This document shows, in pieces, positions 15,856 through 24,316 of a stretch of DNA of 64,000 bases. Position numbers and translations under genes: made by a program. A model generated the notes under the pieces. That model saw only the letters and a list, made by a program, of their open reading frames with translations, did no database searches and was not told where the DNA came from. The first letter of the stretch is position 1; the number at the start of each line of letters is the position of its first letter. The stretch is from Setophaga petechia (taxonomy: Eukaryota > Chordata > Aves > Passeriformes > Parulidae), in contig JANCRA010000003.1 in assembly GCA_024362935.1 (NCBI GenBank), positions 36,889,291-36,953,290 on the forward strand. The letters run 5' to 3'.

Positions 15856-15876
15856 TGTTGCCCGATAGATAAAGGA

Positions 15877-15900
15877 CACAAAACTCGGCAAAGTTTTGTG
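15877..15900 (-). other. Perfect 9-bp hairpin in U5 of 3' LTR
   Basis: CACAAAACT and AGTTTTGTG are exact reverse complements separated by six bases (CGGCAA). The hairpin sits just after the polyadenylation signal, and its second arm holds the GU-rich element. The same hairpin is at 23903-23926 in the other LTR. Confidence 0.75.
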
Positions 15901-15906
15901 CGGTGC

Positions 15907-15912
15907 TTTATT
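15907..15912 (-). terminator. Polyadenylation signal AATAAA in 3' LTR
   Basis: AATAAA on the minus strand, about 72 bases after the TATA box and followed by a TTTTGTGT-type GU-rich element about 30 bases on. This is the arrangement expected for the R/U5 border. This copy would be the one used to end the transcript. Confidence 0.8.
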
Positions 15913-15983
15913 GAGGGCCCCCGAGGGTCCGTGGACTCACGTCCCAAGCCAGAGCCCCATTTTCTCGGGTACAGGTGCTCTTC

Positions 15984-15989
15984 TTTATA
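15984..15989 (-). promoter_or_regulatory. TATA box of 3' LTR
   Basis: TATAAA on the minus strand, identical to the copy at 24010-24015. In this LTR it would direct transcription leftward into host DNA, out of the provirus. Confidence 0.6.
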
Positions 15990-16285
15990 CACATAATCCA
16001 TAACAAAATATCCAAGAAACAGTTCAGCTTGAATAACCGACAAACCCCCCTTACAATACAATCCTGAGTTCAAAAACAGAATCATCCATCTTATACCTAT
16101 CACATTGTGCTGCCTCAAAAAAAACTGGCTAAACTTGTTATCTTCCCTATACTAGTTAATTATTTATCAAGTTCTCATGACTACCTGCTAAGTTACACAC
16201 AAACTCAACACACAGCTTCCACAAAAAAACCGATTCACACAACTCATAATTAAATATTTTGCTAAATTTCATTTCTTTTCCAACA

Positions 16286-16298
16286 TTTCCCCCCTTTT
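16286..16298 (-). promoter_or_regulatory. Polypurine tract (plus-strand primer)
   Basis: On the minus strand the 13 bases immediately before the 3' LTR read A4 G6 A3, directly abutting TGTTG. Position and composition are those of the RNase-H-resistant primer for plus-strand synthesis in retroviruses. It fixes the internal border of the LTR. Confidence 0.92.
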
Positions 16299-16328
16299 GA
16301 GCATCCTTCAGCCCTGCTGCAAGGATGC

Positions 16329-18437
16329 TCAACTAACAGTATTGACAGTAACGTCTTCGTAACGAGGTGGGGAGTGTTCTTCATTCTGCCGCCCACGGGT
16401 CATCGCCTTCAGCAGCCGGAGAGATCGCTTCCTTTCCCTTTCGATCACACCTAAAAGGCATCTATATACAATCCATGTAGTCACTAAAAATACCAAAAAC
16501 ATTAGTGCATACTCTATGACAGACGTAATCCAGCCAGATAGGTGAAGCCCCAAGGAATCAAATACTGCTCCTATCCAATTATGCTGTGCTTCCTTTTCAA
16601 TTTCCTTGGTTTTTGTTTCCACTTCTGCCAATTGGGAAATATCTTTCTCAACTTCAAGTGTAACATTTGGAATATGCACACAGCAATGATCTATGCTCCT
16701 ACTCAGGTAACCACAAACTCCGTGTTCTTTTAACAGTAACAAATCCAATGCCATTCTGTTTTGTAGGGTCATCCTTGATGTGGCTTGCAATTGCAAATTT
16801 AGATCTTTAAATCCCTTCTTAGTAGCTGCTGCCAACCTTTCTGTCTGTCCTAACAAGTTGTCAAGCATTTCCCTATTTCGATATGTCGCAATTGGAGGGA
16901 ATAATGACTCTAATATCCATCCAAATTTTACTCCTGAGCCAGGTTCATGCCACTGCTCCTCTAGGGAGCTTTCCCTCTTTTTGAGCCCTTTCCTTTGGGT
17001 CAATTTATTCTGTTTCCAGTACGGACACAATGTGGGAACCCCTAGGGTGATTTGTGTTACTGAACCATCTAGGGGTAAATGTGTGGTCCACTGTCCGTGT
17101 CCCAACACCCAAACCAAATTTCCAGGGCTGTGCACAGCAGTATATCTGCAATCTATAGGCCCATTCATAGACTCCTGGCTCACCGTGTGATCATACCCCC
17201 TACACTCACATCCCCATTTTAATGCCATTTTCACCGGTACCAATCCGATTCGGTCTTCCGGTGTATCACACGTAAAAACCTCAGTACAATTCCAATCCTC
17301 TTTCTGCGGCCTAAACTCTCGGGAAGATGTAGACGTGACAATGGCTCTATAATGTGACTGATTCTTTACTCCTGACCATTGAATACACCATTGCACTTCC
17401 CCAAGGTAACTATAATGTTCCAAAATACTGGGTCCCCATAATGTCTTCCAGCTTTTCCAGGTGTCAAAATTCTGTGTGACATTCTGACAACTCATCTCAT
17501 TTCGCTGAGATTTCGTTTTTATTCGTATTGTATTGCATGGCTCATCTACTGGGGTTGCAATCAAACACTTCCTGGTATTTTGAATCCATCCATAATAAGT
17601 AGGTTTCTTTTCACATTCCTCTTTAGTCATAACCCGAACAGTCATACACAAATCCTTCCATACCTCTACCGATTTGGGAACTGACTGGCAAGACCATGAA
17701 ACATTCTTAAATGATTCAGGCATTTTGGTTACCGGTATGATCCCCCAGGGAATTGGTTCACCTGCAGCCTGTGGTAATGGCAAACAAGCTGTTATTTTAG
17801 TCACATTCTGCATAATCCCAAAATCTCTAATCAATCCTACCACTAAATTCTCCTGCTCAGCACTTCGTTCTATTGTGTTGTTAGCCTCCCGTCTACTCCT
17901 TCTACCGTGTCTCTGTAAGGATAACATCATTCTGTCATGCCTCCCCCATGCATCTTTAGCTGCCCAACACCAATATTCTCCTGTATCGTTTGTGGTTACC
18001 TTGGTAAGATTCAGTACCGTGTTTCCTTGTTGTTTATCCTGATCCCCGCCGACACCTTTCTTGCCTCGGCTTCTTTCGGCCCCCCGTTGCCATATTGCAA
18101 TAACTTCACCGGCCTCAACTTTCTGGCTGTCAAGTATAACACAAGTTAATTGAACATCCATCCCTGTAACCTTTGTTTCTTCAGCCTGTACTAAAGTAGA
18201 CCCTTGAACGGGTATTAGTCTCATGATCACCAACAGCAGTATAATTAAGAAGGCGGCTTTGCGCGGAAGATCATCCTGGTTGGAGACAGTATCTGGGTTT
18301 CCCATCGGAGCGGTGCCTTCTTTACCCTGGTGTAATGGATCCAAGCATCCATCCCCTGGACCTTCACCGCCGTGTAGGTCGTCATCATCACCTGGTGGGG
18401 TCCGCTCCATGATTCCCGCAGCGGATCCGTGATCCAC
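16329..18437 (-). CDS. env: Intact Env glycoprotein with N-terminal Ig-like domain
   Basis: An open frame of 702 codons, unbroken. The first 44 residues lie inside the pol overlap and are Asp/Gly-rich, so the likely start is Met45 (codon 18305-18303). It is followed by basic Arg59-Lys60 and a hydrophobic signal segment at about 61-78. Residues about 80-175 look like an Ig V-type domain: Cys99, Trp116, and Asp151-Thr-Gly-Glu-Tyr-Trp-Cys157. A furin-like site Arg-Arg-Ser-Arg-Arg ends at 183. The surface part that follows has 14 cysteines and several N-glycosylation sites (211, 245, 319, 359, 383) but no CXXC motif. A weaker basic site, Lys-Lys-Arg488, may mark the surface/transmembrane cut. Next come a hydrophobic stretch 503-519, a heptad region, the conserved Leu-Gln-Asn-Arg..Cys575 block, CX9CC (575/585/586), a membrane span at about 643-662 and a 40-residue tail with PPRY at 690-693. 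The role is receptor binding and fusion. The Ig-like assignment is motif-based. Confidence 0.92.
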   Translation of the reverse strand: MDHGSAAGIMERTPPGDDDDLHGGEGPGDGCLDPLHQGKEGTAPMGNPDTVSNQDDLPRKAAFLIILLLVIMRLIPVQGSTLVQAEETKVTGMDVQLTCVILDSQKVEAGEVIAIWQRGAERSRGKKGVGGDQDKQQGNTVLNLTKVTTNDTGEYWCWAAKDAWGRHDRMMLSLQRHGRRSRREANNTIERSAEQENLVVGLIRDFGIMQNVTKITACLPLPQAAGEPIPWGIIPVTKMPESFKNVSWSCQSVPKSVEVWKDLCMTVRVMTKEECEKKPTYYGWIQNTRKCLIATPVDEPCNTIRIKTKSQRNEMSCQNVTQNFDTWKSWKTLWGPSILEHYSYLGEVQWCIQWSGVKNQSHYRAIVTSTSSREFRPQKEDWNCTEVFTCDTPEDRIGLVPVKMALKWGCECRGYDHTVSQESMNGPIDCRYTAVHSPGNLVWVLGHGQWTTHLPLDGSVTQITLGVPTLCPYWKQNKLTQRKGLKKRESSLEEQWHEPGSGVKFGWILESLFPPIATYRNREMLDNLLGQTERLAAATKKGFKDLNLQLQATSRMTLQNRMALDLLLLKEHGVCGYLSRSIDHCCVHIPNVTLEVEKDISQLAEVETKTKEIEKEAQHNWIGAVFDSLGLHLSGWITSVIEYALMFLVFLVTTWIVYRCLLGVIERERKRSLRLLKAMTRGRQNEEHSPPRYEDVTVNTVS
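17913..18200 (-). other. Ig V-like domain segment within env
   Basis: This covers env residues about 80-175. The putative disulfide pair Cys99/Cys157 is 58 residues apart. Trp116 follows the first Cys by 17. The second Cys closes a Asp-x-Gly-x-Tyr-x-Cys signature preceded by Leu-Asn-Leu-Thr-Lys-Val, as in the E and F strands of V-set domains. N-glycosylation sites are at 143 and 150. A basic/Gly-rich loop at 121-138 lies between strands. A furin-like site directly follows, so the domain could be released or held non-covalently. Confidence 0.72.
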
Positions 18438-18850
18438 TTCTTGACGTACACCTGGTCCCCAGGCTGAATGTCGTGGACAGGGTTCTCCAGCGTGAGCGGT
18501 CTATTCCACTGCAACGTATTTCTTAAAGAGTTCAAAATCTTATTCAGTGACATAACATACTCTGCAATTGCCTGGTCCCCGCTCACATGTACCTCCCCTT
18601 TTAATACAGTTGCATGATATGGTTTGCCATATAGTATCTCATATGGACTTACACCTAGCTTTTCCCTTGGTTTTATTCGAATCCTGAGTAGGGCCAAAGG
18701 CAAAGCTTGAGGCCAGTGCAGTTTAGCTTCCTGGCAAATCTTTTTAATTTGCCCTTTCAGGGTTTGGTTCATTCTTTCCACCTTCCCACTAGACTGAGGT
18801 CTCCAGGGGGTATGCAAATCCCAGTTTATATCTAACATTCGTGCTACATC
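18245..18850 (-). pseudogene. pol: pol fragment 3: integrase C-terminal part
   Basis: This continues the frame of the preceding pol piece after an in-frame TAG at 18851-18853. It holds the third catalytic acid (Glu in SSGKVERMNQ, codon near 18778), exactly 35 residues after the second Asp of the upstream piece, i.e. the D(35)E spacing of retroviral integrases. The C-terminal region has the Ser-Gly-Pro-His..Val..Trp-Ile-His module typical of gammaretroviral and class I integrases. Its 3' end overlaps the start of env in another frame by about 60 bp (if env begins at 18305). On its own this fragment has no catalytic activity to offer. Confidence 0.9.
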
Positions 18851-18853
18851 CTA
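18851..18853 (-). other. In-frame stop TAG inside integrase
   Basis: TAG interrupts an otherwise continuous frame ten residues after the Asp of Ser-Ser-Asp-Arg-Gly-Pro-His. The flanking protein sequence lines up on both sides without a gap (D(35)E is preserved). This is therefore a point nonsense change, compatible with CAG to TAG. Confidence 0.88.
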
Positions 18854-20701
18854 CACTACCCCAGCTATAAAGTGCGGTCCCCTATCTGATGACAATCCTA
18901 AAGGTACTCCAAATCTTGGTATTATTTCTTTTAACAGGGTTTTTACCACCTCCTTAGCCTGATTAGTTCTACATGGAAAAGCTTCTGGCCACCCTGAAAA
19001 TGTACATACGTACACTAACAAGTATCTGTACCCTTGTGCCCTAGGCAATTCAGAAAAATCGACTTGCCAGTAATCTCCTGGTTGTGGCCCAATTTGCAAT
19101 CTTCCCATCTGTACCTGTCTCCTTACTACTGGATTATTTTTCAAACATACCGGGCACATTGCATTAACTCTCTTTGCCATTGTTAACATCTGATTAGAGA
19201 TTATTTCATTCTTCAAAAATTTTACCAATACTTCTGCCCCCCAATGGCATTTATTGTGTTCTGTTTCCAAAATAAATTTCATTATGCGGGTAGGTACCAC
19301 TATTTGTCCCATTGGTGTAACGTACCACCCGAGTTGGTTCCTCTGTGCTCCTAGCAAGTTTATTAGCTTTCCATCTTCTATTGAATATTTGGGCTCTTGA
19401 TTCAGGTACGGGGTAGCTGGATTTGTTCTTACCGGTATCAATGCCATTTGAGTCCATACTTCCCGTGCCACTTGCCGTGCTGTAACATCAGCAAATCGAT
19501 TTCCTCTGTAAACGTCTCCCTCCGCAGTCTGATGTCCCCTGACATGCATCACTGCAACTGCTTTGGGACAATGTACCGCATCCAGTAGCTGTAGCACTTC
19601 TTCCCGGTGCTTGATGTTAGCTCCCTGTGAATTCAAAAGCCCCCTTTCTTTCCATAATGCCCCATGTACATGGACCACACCAAAGGCGTATTTAGAATCT
19701 GTCCAGATATTAACCCTTTTGTCCTTGCTCAAATACAGAGCTCTGGTAAGTCCAATCACCTCTGCTTTCTGGGCCGAAGTTCCAGGTAACAGAGCCTTTG
19801 CTTCTATTACCTGATCCAAAGTTACCACTGCATATCCAGCGTAGCGAGTCCCATTCTCGACAAAACTGGATCCATCAGTGTATAGTTCCCATTCAGGTTC
19901 TTCCAATGGCTCATCCTTTAGGTCAGGTCTGCTGGCATATACTTGTTCAATCACCTCCACGCAATCGTGCACCAGTTCCCCAGCCTCCTGGTCACTGCGT
20001 AGAAACTCTGCTGGATTGACATGATTAGTAGTCCTTATTTCGATATCATCCTGCTCTCTCAGGATGGCCTGGTATTGCAACATTCGGTTTGATGATAGCC
20101 AGTGACCCCCCTTTTGCTCCAAAACAGCCATGACCATATGGGGAACAAACACTTTCATTTTTGCCCCCAAAGTCAATTTCCGGGCCTCTTGAATAAGGAT
20201 TATTGTTGCTGCCACGGCCCGTAAACACGAAGGCCATCCGGAACTTACCGAATCCAGTTGTTTAGAGAAGTATCCTACTGGCCTCTTCCATGATCCCACC
20301 TTCTGGGTGAGGACCCCCAATGCCAGTTTTTGCCTCTCATTCACGTACAACTGGAATTCCTTGGTCAGGTCAGGGAGTCCCAAGGCTGGGGCCTCTTTCA
20401 GTGCCTGCTTCAGCTCCTGGAAGGCCTTCTTTCGCTGTGTTGTCCACTCCAGCTGATGCTGCTTCAGGGCCTCATACAGTGGCTTGGCTAGGAGACCGAA
20501 GTTCATGATCCACAGTCGACACCATCCCACCATTCCTAGAAAAGATCTCAATTCTTGATGACTACGAGGCAAAGGAATAGCACATATTGCTTCTATTCGG
20601 TTTACTCCCAAACGTCTCTGTCCCTGTGTGATCTCGCAACCGAGATAAATGACGCTATTTTTGAGCAGTTGAGCTTTTTCCTTAGAGACCCGGTACCCTG
20701 C
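18854..20701 (-). pseudogene. pol: pol fragment 2: RT connection, RNase H, integrase N-part and core
   Basis: The frame is open from the TAA at 20702-20704 to the TAG at 18851. Numbering from the codon at 20611, the RT thumb/connection region comes first. RNase H follows with Asp245 (Tyr-Thr-Asp-Gly-Ser-Ser), Glu284, Asp305 (Thr-Asp-Ser-Lys) and Asp375. The integrase zinc finger is His452, His456, Cys486, Cys489. The catalytic core has Asp518 (Gln-Val-Asp-Phe) and Asp576. All expected catalytic residues of RNase H and two of three for integrase are present. The RT YVDD box lies upstream in the same frame, before the TAA. Confidence 0.93.
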
Positions 20702-20704
20702 TTA
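20702..20704 (-). other. In-frame stop TAA in reverse transcriptase
   Basis: TAA stands 23 codons after the YVDD box (20774-20785) in the same frame, between Met-Leu-Gly and Ala-Gly-Tyr-Arg, a conserved part of RT. Protein similarity continues on both sides, so this is a nonsense change, compatible with CAA to TAA. Confidence 0.85.
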
Positions 20705-20756
20705 GCCCAGCATGTTGAGTAATTTAATTGTTAATTCCACACATATTTCCCTTTCC

Positions 20757-21773
20757 TTAGTAGCCAAAAAGATGTCGTCCACGTACTGCAGAACTATATA
20801 CAAGGATGGGGATATTGTTACCTGGGTTGTCTTCCCACACCTCTAGCTCCTTGGCCAGTTGTTTTCCAAAAATAGTAGGGCTGTGTCGGTACCCTTGTGG
20901 TAATCTCGACCACGTAAGCTGCTTCTTCCTCCCAGAATCAGGATCTTCCCACTCGAAGGCAAAATATTTCCTACTCTCTACTGCCAGTGGGATGCAGAAG
21001 AAGGCATCTTTAAGGTCAATCACTGAAAACCATTTAAACTCCTCCGATACAGATGTTAACAAGGTATAAGGATTTGCAACAACTGGGTGTATGTCTTTCA
21101 CTATTTCATTAATAGCCCTTAGGTCCTGTACCAAACGATACTTACCATTAGGCTTCTTCACTGGAAAAATTGGAGTATTATACTCCGATTCACATTCCTG
21201 TAATATTCCTTGAGCCAAAAACTGTTTAATCAACGGGGCTACTCCCCTCCTTGCCTCAAGCTTCAAAGGGTATTGCTTTACCCTCACTGGTTGGGCCCCT
21301 TCCTTTAGTTCCACTTTTACTGGCTGTGCTGCTTTAGATTTTCCAGGGGCCCCTGACTCCCATACCCAGGGTACTACAGCCTGCTCAATTTCTTCTGGAA
21401 TAGGAGAAACATCCACTTCCTTGATCACAAAAAGGCCTGCTATTTGTTCCTCAGGTATTTCCAATTTCACCCTTCCCTTTTCAAATATTATTTTCACATT
21501 AAGTCGGGACAACAGGTCCCTGCCAAGAAGGGGTGTGGGGCAATTTGGCATATACAAAAATTGGTGATCTAATTGTTTCCCCCCAAACCTAAGATTTAAA
21601 GGTTGTAAAAATGGTTGTTTCTCCAGCTTCCCCGTTGCCCCTACCACCTGTACCATTGTATCACTCAAAGGTCCCAGTCGTTTATTAAGTACAGAATATG
21701 TGGCTCCAGTATCTACCATAAATTCTTGATCCTTTCCATTTATTTCTAAAACTACCCTCAAATCCCGTTCTAG
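20757..21773 (-). pseudogene. pol: pol fragment 1: protease and N-terminal reverse transcriptase
   Basis: This continues the gag frame directly after the UGA at 21774. Numbering from the codon at 21761, the retropepsin active site Asp17-Thr-Gly-Ala is near the start and the flap/C-terminal part (Leu-Leu-Gly-Arg-Asp at 78-82) follows. RT fingers and palm come next, with Asp249 (Val-Ile-Asp-Leu-Lys-Asp-Ala-Phe-Phe) and Leu-Pro-Gln-Gly at 287-290. The frame is lost between about residue 310 and the YVDD box (20786-20820); what follows to the stop at 20757 is out-of-frame. The net change is a single-base shift. A functional polymerase cannot be made without crossing it. Confidence 0.93.
20774..20785 (-). 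other. RT catalytic YVDD box, in the second pol frame
   Basis: Codons for Tyr-Val-Asp-Asp, preceded by Leu-Gln and followed by Ile-Phe-Leu-Ala, lie in the frame of the downstream pol piece. They are not in the frame of the protease/RT piece, which reads through here out of frame and stops at 20757. Confidence 0.9.
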
Positions 21774-21776
21774 TCA
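21774..21776 (-). promoter_or_regulatory. Gag stop codon UGA in readthrough context (UGA CUA G)
   Basis: Gag ends with TGA and the same frame continues at once into protease (start codons at 22757 and 21761 differ by a multiple of three). The stop is followed by CTAG. UGA-CUA is a well-known leaky stop context in animal and alphavirus messages. Gammaretroviruses make Gag-Pol by stop suppression, so this arrangement is expected for the class. Confidence 0.85.
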
Positions 21777-22856
21777 GCTCTGGTTCTGATAGTTTCCCAA
21801 AACTAGTGCCTGAGCAGCATCGGCTGGTCCTCCCGCAGAAGCATTCCCCATTGCCCTTATTCCCACGTTTCCCATGCCCATTCCTCCCCTGACCGGACAT
21901 TCATTTTTCCAGTGTCCTAATTGTCGGCAAAACGCACACTGGTTTGGATCCAACCTCCCCGTGTTAGGTGCAAACCCAAATCCTCCCTGACCTCTTGCCA
22001 TTCCCCTCTGTCCACGATTAGCTCCTCCCCGACCTCGGCCCCGAAAGCCTGCCCCTGTCACCACAGCCAAAATACCAGCTTGTTGTCTTTTTGCAGTTTC
22101 TTTTTCCCTATTATTATATACCTTCCATGCTACCTCCAGCATTTTATCCAAACTCCTGGTATCCTCCCCTTCCAACTTTTGTAACTTTTTCCTAATATCC
22201 TCTTGCGATTGCCCCATAAACAACAATGCCAATTGAAGTTTTCCTGATTGCTCCTCTACATCTAAATTTGTAAACTTCCGAGCCGCATCCTTTAACCGTT
22301 CCAAAAAAGCAGAAGGAGACTCATTCTTGTCCTGCTTAACCGAATACAACTTGGACCAATTCATAGTCTTAGGTATTCCTGTTCTGATTCCTTCCACCAG
22401 CAATTCTTGATATCGTTTCACAGCCCTTATTCCTCCTGTAGAGTTCGGATCCCATTTGGGTTCCTCACTCGGTACCAACTCATCAACTGTTTCATTTAAT
22501 TGTCTCAACCGAATCTCCTCCCGGGCCTTTTCCCGAGTGGCTTTAATAACCATTTCCTTTTCAGTAAAGTCCATTATAGTATCTAATAATACCTGTAAAT
22601 CATTCCAGTCCGGATTCTGAGTTTTTATCACCATTTTAACCACCCTAGCCACTCTCTCCGGGTCCTCCCGGTAACTCCCTGCTGATTGTTTCCATATTAC
22701 CAAATCCCCAGGGGAGAAAGGTACTTTTATAAGTATCCTTTTCCCCTGTGGTCCCACAGCTTCCCTTAAAGGTGCAATTAACTGTGGTTGCCCCTTCTGC
22801 CCCTTCCTCCCCGTGCGAGTTCGCTCCGCTAACGGAGTTCTTTTAACATCCTCCTT
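21774..22856 (-). pseudogene. gag: gag fragment 2: capsid and nucleocapsid
   Basis: The open frame continues gag after the A-run at 22855-22863. Numbering from the codon at 22757, it holds a capsid with the major homology region at about 142-160 (Gln..Asn-Glu-Ser-Pro-Ser-Ala-Phe-Leu-Glu-Arg-Leu). A coiled, charged C-terminal region, an Arg/Gly-rich segment at 238-262 and a single zinc knuckle CX2CX4HX4C at Cys274, Cys277, His282, Cys287 follow. Capsid forms the particle core and nucleocapsid binds the genome. A single knuckle is typical of gammaretroviruses. The part is complete to its UGA but lies in a different frame from the matrix part. Confidence 0.93.
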
Positions 22857-23398
22857 TTTTTTTCATCATCATCATCAATATCGCTGTCACTGGAGCCCGT
22901 TTTTATAAATATGTCAGCAGGGGGAGGACGAGGCACGCCAGGAGCAACCGAAACCCTCGGGGGGGCTACACAATAAGACAGCTTTTCCTCAATTAAAGGA
23001 TACAAATTACTCTCCTTTCTCTCTTTGCATGCCAAACATTCTCTCTCATCATTCACTTCCAAAACCAAAATACCACACTCTTTTTGCCATTCCTCTTTCC
23101 GATACAACACAAAAAACAAATCTAAGTAAGGTATTTCATCCAATTTCTCATTTCTCCTTAAAAACTGCATCAAAGATTCCATTATTTTCAATTCCACAGT
23201 ACCATTTACCGGCCAACCCCTTTCCCCAATCTCATATTCAGGCCACCAACGATTACAATAATCTATCATTTTACTTTTATCCAATTCTTGATAATACCCT
23301 TCACTTTTCCACCGCTTCAATATACACCCCAATGGAGTATTTTCAGGTCTTTTACCATTGGCTTGCACTAACGTTTTGAAAGTTTTAAGAGACATCAT
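22829..23398 (-). pseudogene. gag: gag fragment 1: matrix and following linker domain
   Basis: 189 codons starting with Met-Met-Ser-Leu. There is no Gly at position 2, so no N-myristoylation signal is seen. A helical matrix region with the Gly-Trp-Pro..Asn-Gly-Thr element (residues 61-67) resembles gammaretroviral matrix. A Pro-rich linker (145-160) and an acidic Asp-rich stretch (171-178) follow. No PPPY or PTAP late motif is visible. The frame runs off at Lys-Lys-Arg-Arg after the 9-A run and stops at 22829. The tandem 37-bp repeats begin just upstream of the start codon. Confidence 0.9.
22855..22863 (-). other. Nine-A run where the gag frame changes
   Basis: On the minus strand A9 follows GATGATGATG. 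The matrix frame reads it as GAA AAA AAA AGG, and the capsid frame is one base back. The run contains A AAA AAA in the zero frame, formally a -1 slippery heptamer. A 5-bp stem CTCCG/CGGAG with a four-base loop holding the TAG stop lies 17 bases downstream (22824-22837). A one-base contraction of the run is the simpler explanation. Confidence 0.8.
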
Positions 23399-23399
23399 A

Positions 23400-23588
23400 T
23401 TACAACAATTCCACCTTTAGTCCCAATAAACCAGTATCACAGCAGTTCCACCTTTAGTTCCAATGAACCAATATCACAGCAATTCCACCTTTAGTTCCAA
23501 TAAACCAATATTACAGAAATTCCACCTTTAATTCCAATAAACCAATATTACAGAAATTCCACCTTTAATTCCAATAAACCAATATTAC
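23400..23588 (-). repeat. 37-bp tandem repeat, about five copies, in the gag leader
   Basis: The plus-strand element TTCCACCTTTA recurs at 23409, 23446, 23483, 23520 and 23557, exactly 37 bases apart. The most similar pair are the last two units; the outer copies carry a few substitutions. It lies between the splice donor and the gag start, the region where retroviral packaging signals usually sit. Each unit contains CCAAT on the plus strand. Confidence 0.93.
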
Positions 23589-23731
23589 CATCTCGCCTTC
23601 CTTCCCAAAAACCAAATAGGAGGCGAGTCCTGATCCTGCGTACTTAAACGTACGTCTTATGGTCAGGGCCTAGGCTTTTCCACCACCAAATCCAAATCCA
23701 ATTACCACCTTTTAATATAAAGCACCTTCGG

Positions 23732-23741
23732 GCTTACCTTT
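23732..23741 (-). promoter_or_regulatory. Candidate major splice donor in leader
   Basis: The minus strand reads CAAAG|GTAAGC, with the exon ending at 23738. It is a close match to the vertebrate donor consensus, placed 144 bases into the leader and upstream of gag, where the donor for spliced env mRNA is expected. No acceptor could be chosen with confidence. Confidence 0.65.
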
Positions 23742-23856
23742 GCAGCTTGTCCGACAGGCGCGGGGGGTCGGAGCACGGATCGATGACTCCTCCGAGAAGC
23801 GCTCGGTGCCGGCTGGAGTAATCGAGGCGTGAGCCGCCCCGGCTGCCTTCGGAGTG

Positions 23857-23874
23857 TCCTGCCGCGGGTCGCCA
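23857..23874 (-). promoter_or_regulatory. Primer binding site, tRNA-Arg-like
   Basis: The minus strand reads TGGCGACCC followed by GCGGCAGGA, starting seven bases after the 5' LTR. TGG pairs with the tRNA CCA end, and the next six bases suit an arginine tRNA with acceptor end GGGTCG. The remaining nine bases imply a T-arm/acceptor I cannot confirm from memory. The 7-base gap to the LTR is longer than usual. Confidence 0.6.
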
Positions 23875-23902
23875 AAGAAGCTGTTGCCCGATAGATAAAG
23901 GA

Positions 23903-23926
23903 CACAAAACTCGGCAAAGTTTTGTG
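23903..23926 (-). other. Perfect 9-bp hairpin in U5 of 5' LTR
   Basis: Same hairpin as at 15877-15900 (arms CACAAAACT and AGTTTTGTG, six-base loop). In this LTR it falls in the transcribed leader near the 5' end of the RNA. Confidence 0.75.
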
Positions 23927-23932
23927 CGGTGC

Positions 23933-23938
23933 TTTATT
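23933..23938 (-). promoter_or_regulatory. AATAAA copy in 5' LTR
   Basis: Identical to the signal in the 3' LTR. Here it lies about 45 bases after the expected start of transcription and would have to be ignored for full-length RNA, as is usual for retroviruses with the signal in R. Confidence 0.7.
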
Positions 23939-24009
23939 GAGGGCCCCCGAGGGTCCGTGGACTCACGTCCCAAGCCAGAGCCCCATTTTCTCGGGTACAG
24001 GTGCTCTTC

Positions 24010-24015
24010 TTTATA
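24010..24015 (-). promoter_or_regulatory. TATA box of 5' LTR
   Basis: TATAAA followed by GAAGAG on the minus strand, about 300 bases into the LTR and about 72 bases before AATAAA. Transcription would start near 23980-23985. No other promoter element was assigned. Confidence 0.7.
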
Positions 24016-24312
24016 CACATAATCCATAACAAAATATCCAAGAAACAGTTCAGCTTGAATAACCGACAAACCCCCCTTACAATACAATCCTGAGTTCAAA
24101 AACAGAATCATCCATCTTATACCTATCACATTGTGCTGCCTCAAAAAAAACTGGCTAAACTTGTTATCTTCCCTATACTAGTTAATTATTTATCAAGTTC
24201 TCATGACTACCTGCTAAGTTACACACAAACTCAACACACAGCTTCCACAAAAAAAACCGATTCACACAACTCATAATTAAATATTTTGCTAAATTTCATT
24301 TCTTTTCCAACA

Positions 24313-24316
24313 TAAA
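24313..24316. repeat. Target-site duplication, right copy
   Basis: TAAA directly after the CA end of the right LTR, matching 15852-15855. Extending to five or six bases breaks the match (GTAAA versus TAAAT). Confidence 0.65.

Follow-up and report, generated by a model that had tools for sequence, protein, structure and literature searches.

Retroviral envelope (Env) proteins are normally cut into two subunits. The closest described systems to the one presented here are the gamma-type Envs of murine leukaemia virus (MLV) and the syncytins, together with filovirus GP2; the crocodilian element CrocERV31, which is derived from a retrovirus and has three immunoglobulin (Ig) domains through the capture of nectin3 (PMC4299795); and an avipoxvirus family of three-Ig 'Ig-like domain proteins', of which shearwaterpox SWPV1-183 shares 54% identity with canarypox CNPV081 (PMC5390406). 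Here we describe an endogenous retrovirus (ERV) in a window of 64,000 nucleotides (the whole stretch of DNA analysed) of the bird Setophaga petechia (assembly GCA_024362935.1, contig JANCRA010000003.1, positions 36,889,291 to 36,953,290). Its env gene encodes a protein which, with a confidence approaching certainty, has a gamma-type-like anatomy with an extra N-terminal Ig module between the signal segment and the surface subunit (SU). Sequence comparison indicates that this module is almost certainly homologous to the avipoxvirus proteins. While nectin3 is described as replacing env in CrocERV31 (PMC4299795), the Ig module is here fused in frame to a complete Env.

The Ig domain and the Env protein

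The Cys-Trp-(DxGxYxC) pattern is the framework motif of V-set Ig domains. A sequence-only reading of the window had placed Cys99, Trp116 and Asp-Thr-Gly-Glu-Tyr-Trp-Cys157 between the signal segment and a basic RRSRR site, and these framework residues (C99, W116, D151-C157) are indeed found at those positions. Its proposal that they mark a V-set domain is borne out by profile search and structure prediction. The Pfam V-set profile matches the isolated piece (Bitscore: 35.5; e-value: 1.2e-8) and the whole Env (Bitscore: 26.9) above the curated cut-off of 26, and the predicted structure of the domain, of modest confidence, has an Ig-like arrangement consistent with a β-sandwich. Among solved chains, CD160 is the best Foldseek match (e-value: 4.5e-4; two of the 1699 matches have an e-value of 0.001 or less). 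The best viral models are those of shearwaterpox SWPV1-183, a sequence that sat in the alignment used for folding the Ig piece, and SWPV1-144, which are also the top two for the whole Env model. Sequence-based PDB matches of the domain include CEACAMs, pIgR and antibody heavy-chain variable domains (VH). A kinship to pIgR, CD300 and TREM, as suggested by the Tyr-Trp-Cys form, was set aside: in the PDB comparison of the Env Ig1 profile, pIgR is present but aligned at most over positions 60-97 of 99, and neither CD300 nor TREM is found among the best 60 rows. The prokaryote library NCBIfam returned nothing.

The topology of the gammaretroviral receptor-binding domain (RBD) is likewise Ig-like. 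The segment could accordingly be read as an ordinary RBD with a chance V-set signature, in keeping with the common β-strand arrangement of known RBD cores described in PMC9967133. We rejected this explanation, which is exceedingly improbable, as the V-set match exceeds the Pfam cut-off, no retroviral chain is found among the best 60 PDB rows listed for the Ig segment, relatives hold three tandem Ig domains, and a full SU lies behind the basic site.

The remainder of the protein has the parts of a gamma-type Env. The TLV_coat profile of Pfam matches it (Bitscore: 23.4; cut-off: 22.5; e-value: 3e-5), the transmembrane subunit (TM) harbors an LQNR-type segment, and it matches solved MLV, syncytin and filovirus chains. 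The emu Env, which lacks an Ig domain, aligns along the SU and is identical to the window Env in 71 of 261 SU and 73 of 202 TM residues, while SU and TM can be aligned across the relatives regardless of Ig count, the emu included. The Ig domain is thus additional to a complete SU/TM, as the sequence-only reading implied, rather than part of an ordinary surface domain. Apart from this leading module, the window Env differs from gamma-type Envs in two respects. The CX6CC motif was not found after the LQNR segment, where the window has C575-x9-CC585-586 (16680-16715), a spacing shared with the Pipra, Serinus, P0010, duck and emu Envs, and it is for this reason that we term the Env gamma-type-like. 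Furthermore, no CXXC motif was found among the SU cysteines, a motif likewise reported missing from alpharetroviruses (PMC9967133). The SU/TM junction of the window copy (about 16974-16994) lacks a strict match to R-x-x-R or [KR]-x-[KR]-R, such as is present in 21 of the 23 sequences scanned.

Relatives with up to three Ig domains

A search with the Env returned 30 proteins, those with organism names deriving from birds, mostly passerines, along with mousebird, duck and emu. The arrangement recurs among them, in that their N-termini align as a module that lies between the signal segment and the SU and comprises as many as three Ig domains. Reading of alignments and records assigned three Ig domains to 5/30 relatives (P0001, P0003, P0009, P0010 and P0028, with P0009 beginning within Ig1), a partial Ig1 with Ig2 and Ig3 to 3/30, Ig1 and Ig2 to 4/30, Ig1 alone or with a stub to 6/30, and a broken Ig1 to 3/30. 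No Ig domain is present in 2/30 and the N-terminus is lacking in 7/30. The precomputed domains of the duck Env include no Ig domain, although the gene model has the appearance of a merged one. Gene models of this appearance are also found among the records P0020, P0023, P0024, P0029 and P0030. An artefact of assembly or gene modelling was nevertheless rejected as the principal explanation, because a single open frame encodes the module both in the window and in many of the records. The five three-Ig Envs have eight cysteines before the SU, an even number, of which four are within Ig2. Profiles of Ig1 and Ig3 match known Ig chains, while Ig2 matches weakly (best e-value: 0.0057; PD-L2).

The single Ig domain of the window is very probably a hybrid, in which an in-frame deletion joined the front of Ig1 to the tail of Ig3, because its front is Ig1-like and its tail Ig3-like. 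Unaided, MAFFT placed part of the domain in Ig1 and part in Ig3. When scored against eight sequences, residues 81-147 have their best score on Ig1 in all seven sequences that have Ig1 (Serinus z: 19.2, vs 5.0 for Ig3), and residues 158-178 score best on Ig3 in 7/8 (Colius z: 10.5; Serinus z: 7.9). The earlier suggestion of a captured Ig domain therefore stands as regards a true Ig domain, though not as regards a single captured unit. In P0036 of the song sparrow, which is also the closest Env fragment to that of the window (85% identity over 177 columns), a further in-frame fusion appears to be present, with Ig2 joined to that same tail of Ig3.

Two further records may be mentioned. P0037 of Aphelocoma, annotated as 'endomucin-like', consists of the env leader and part of Ig1 followed by Endomucin (Pfam e-value: 2.1e-48), a possible ERV-derived first exon. 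In P0030 of Hirundo, a single gene model fuses an integrase C-terminus with the Ig module.

Avipoxvirus homologs and the direction of transfer

A search with the three-Ig profile returned nine matches, of which two are poxviral: SWPV1-183 (42% identity over 96%; e-value: 2e-111) and a Finch poxvirus protein (e-value: 2e-87). Seeded with these two, a second search returned eight proteins, all of pox type and seven with poxvirus names. The family includes SWPV1-183, Crowpox CRPV-108 and members from Mudlarkpox, Finch poxvirus and Cheloniid poxvirus 1, while scans of viral contigs found no relative. From a signal-like start to the end of Ig3 the pox proteins are collinear with the Env module, and 7/8 end within about ten residues of the end of Ig3, near the putative cleavage site of the Env. 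Three collinear Ig domains with two further cysteines in Ig2 are found in P0003 and P0010, not in the window copy. Unlike the Env module, the avipox form is a free-standing gene with neither SU/TM nor a terminal basic site. The encoded protein is apparently soluble, and this more than any other observation hints that the module can function by itself.

Two unrelated virus families thus share one immune-type module, which either passed between them or was taken by both from one gene. We favour, with modest confidence, a transfer from retrovirus to poxvirus, because the pox clade nests beside the Pipra Env and because similarity extends upstream of the signal core. Although the Ig trees are unrooted and cannot fix the direction, they unite the pox rows in a single clade (100/99), which joins next to the Pipra env lineage at 94/92 and 90/91. 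The 17-row tree excluded Melospiza13 and Hirundo25, and the 19-row tree excluded P0030, P0032 and the rows with a single Ig domain; Ig3 columns were masked in four two-Ig rows. In the Ig1 tree, for which 27 of 28 rows were retained (lgn34 being dropped) and P0005, P0006, P0022, P0029, P0037 and P0043 were not entered, pox lie inside a mixed group (89/84), sister to the Pipra group at 79/78 only. Separation of Pipra and P0010 from pox was not rejected (approximately unbiased test, p-AU: 0.087). Upstream of the signal core, none of 5000 column shuffles equalled the similarity between six pox and ten env rows. This test used the aligner's own placement and omitted P0031 and P0043. The best pox/env pair shares 6/18 identities in this stretch, which overlaps pol in the window, past the point where the MLVIN_C match ends. 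The tail of the pox-type protein P0033 weakly resembles the start of SU (18/500 shuffles as high). Fowlpox virus with integrated reticuloendotheliosis virus (REV) provides a precedent for the entry of retroviral DNA into an avipox genome (PMC3754887). REV is, however, a different retrovirus, and the terms immunoglobulin and Ig-like are absent from PMC3754887.

An origin of the module in a poxvirus, with later uptake by a retrovirus, appears unlikely, even though in poxviruses it forms a complete gene family. Under a non-reversible model the root falls within pox, with a rootstrap that does not exceed about 24%; this rooting speaks against transfer from retrovirus to poxvirus but may follow the AT-rich composition of pox. 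Similarly, if Zosterops and Aphelocoma are left uncounted, the pox and env rows are the two sides of one branch. An origin in poxviruses accords poorly with the attachment of the pox clade beside a single env lineage, its position in a mixed group in the Ig1 tree, the similarity that continues upstream into the pol overlap, and the weakly SU-like tail of P0033. Separate captures of the same bird gene by a retrovirus and a poxvirus are improbable. Both kinds of virus do capture genes, as with the nectin3 mRNA reported to have been taken up by crocodilian ERVs (PMC4299795). However, the collinearity of the viral proteins extends through the signal segment, and two protein searches, covering candidates of about 170-580 amino acids that share 5-residue words, returned no bird gene with this arrangement of domains other than in ERV-like records. 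The host Ig gene that the sequence-only reading envisaged as donor was likewise not returned by these length-limited searches.

The Ig and SU/TM trees conflict (p-AU: 3.6e-5), which suggests recombination within env. In the SU/TM tree, which disagrees with the Ig tree, the duck and emu outgroups are on very long branches; the C-termini of Oenanthe and Aphelocoma were trimmed, and P0015, P0023, P0024, P0029 and P0030 were excluded.

The basic site and the proposed function of the module

A basic motif, defined as RxxR or [KR]x[KR]R, is present within 45 residues before the SU in 24 of the 25 sequences with a recognizable SU start, the window counted. Within a 14-residue zone, 13-26 residues before the SU, it occurs in 20/25 sequences, compared with 614/14885 control windows; as the sequences share descent and some are almost the same, a binomial figure is too strong. 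The retention of this motif agrees with the earlier suggestion that RRSRR is a furin-like candidate site which may release the Ig domain. As the emu Env has a KNKR site and no Ig domain, the sequences suggest that the basic site came first and that the Ig module was later inserted before it.

Proteins of the B7 family, with their V-C domain arrangement, serve as ligands of immune cells. When compared with solved PDB chains, the best full-length matches of the Env Ig1 profile are B7 family V domains, namely CD276 (9lme; e-value: 1.5e-10), PD-L2 (e-value: 7e-9) and PD-L1, together with JAM-A, and the pox profile also matches PD-L2 (e-value: 6.7e-8) and PD-L1. With low confidence, this suggests a partner on immune cells, while mimicry of a B7-like ligand is a tentative and rather unlikely possibility.

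In the mechanism we propose, a proprotein convertase would cut at the basic site and free the Ig module, which would then act in trans, either as an immune decoy or by mimicking a B7-like ligand. In this role it would be an accessory of entry and not what enables it. Release and action in trans are inferred from sequence. The accessory reading draws on the emu Env, which has SU/TM without an Ig domain, and on the poxviruses, which keep the module free. We consider an accessory, protease-released module to have an even chance of being correct, and assign the mechanism as a whole a probability of roughly 0.45. Several observations weigh against it. When scored against P0010, the tail of the Ig domain in the window has no preference for Ig3 (z: -0.1), P0004 has Ig1 and no basic motif, and the full Env structure model is poor (predicted local distance difference test, pLDDT: 50). 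The loss of Ig domains may mean that the module is dispensable in decaying copies, and gag and pol of the window are broken. Among the pox-type proteins, P0033 has a longer, 25-residue tail, 3/7 modules have nine cysteines, an odd number, and membrane anchors were judged by eye. Finally, the best chains of the pox profile by e-value are titin and CEA, and other Ig families score close to B7, so that PDB rank cannot name the origin.

Alternatively, the Ig module may itself be the RBD, staying on the virion and selecting the cell, with domain loss shifting the receptor. This entry role is doubtful but a live rival, since in gammaretroviruses a soluble RBD is known to act in trans (PMC9967133). 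Gammaretroviral RBDs also occupy the amino end, according to the same source, the number of domains varies among the relatives, and the disagreement between the Ig and SU/TM trees is as if parts had been swapped. However, the kept basic site may cut the module off, the emu has SU/TM without it, and pox carry it free of SU or TM. An extension of the accessory reading, which we regard as unlikely, is that a B7-like module circulates between retroviruses of birds, which would carry it as a third Env subunit released by a protease, and their poxviruses, which would secrete it as a protein, both blunting bird lymphocytes with it, while its domain number grows and shrinks as an evolving cassette.

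The provirus

The features of the provirus are listed in Table 1. Its Gag_p30 match, MLV-type integrase C-terminus, and gag stop separating gag from a pol in the same frame identify it by sequence as gammaretrovirus-like. The two long terminal repeats (LTRs), of 431 and 432 bases, share 99.77% identity over 432 columns, with a single gap and zero substitutions (BLAST), and both are flanked at their outer ends by TTTA, as judged by eye. Because the LTRs are near identical, the insertion is evolutionarily recent, and there is no support for its exaptation as a host gene. A change of reading frame and an in-frame stop break pro-pol, while the env reading frame (702 codons) is uninterrupted.

Table 1. 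Features of the provirus and its Env protein (window positions)
Feature	Position	Strand	Remarks
Provirus	about 15856 to 24313	-	
3' LTR	15856..16286	-	BLAST limits
env from first ATG	16329..18410	-	Open reading frame (ORF) open from 18437; TLV_coat match
TM	16332..16973	-	LQNR-type segment, C-x9-CC, hydrophobic anchor
SU, residues 184-488	16974..17888	-	Full-length alignable to Ig-less emu Env
RRSRR furin-like site between Ig module and SU	17889..17903	-	Motif
Ig V-set domain, residues 81-178	17904..18197	-	Front Ig1-like, after Cys157 Ig3-like
Hydrophobic signal segment, residues 61-79	18201..18257	-	Predicted by eye from sequence
pro-pol region	18245..21761	-	RVP, RVT_1, RNase H, rve and MLVIN_C matches
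gag region, two reading frames	21774..23398	-	Second ORF matches Gag_p30 (e-value: 2.4e-39)
37-base unit array	23397-23588		5.2 copies; directly upstream of first gag ORF
5' LTR	23882..24313	-	BLAST limits

Implications

The sequences are public, and database records are already titled 'Ig-like domain-containing protein' or 'Envelope glycoprotein'. In searches of an open-access library, outside which most subscription journals and bioRxiv preprints lie, we found no account of Ig domains in a bird Env and no description of a connection between retroviruses and poxviruses through this module. If the reading proposed here is true, this Env family would have a third, separable Ig part, encoded by a gene held in common with poxviruses. 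It would represent a direct case of the traffic of an immune-type module between retroviruses and large DNA viruses, and would provide a concrete protein whose binding partner in birds can be sought.
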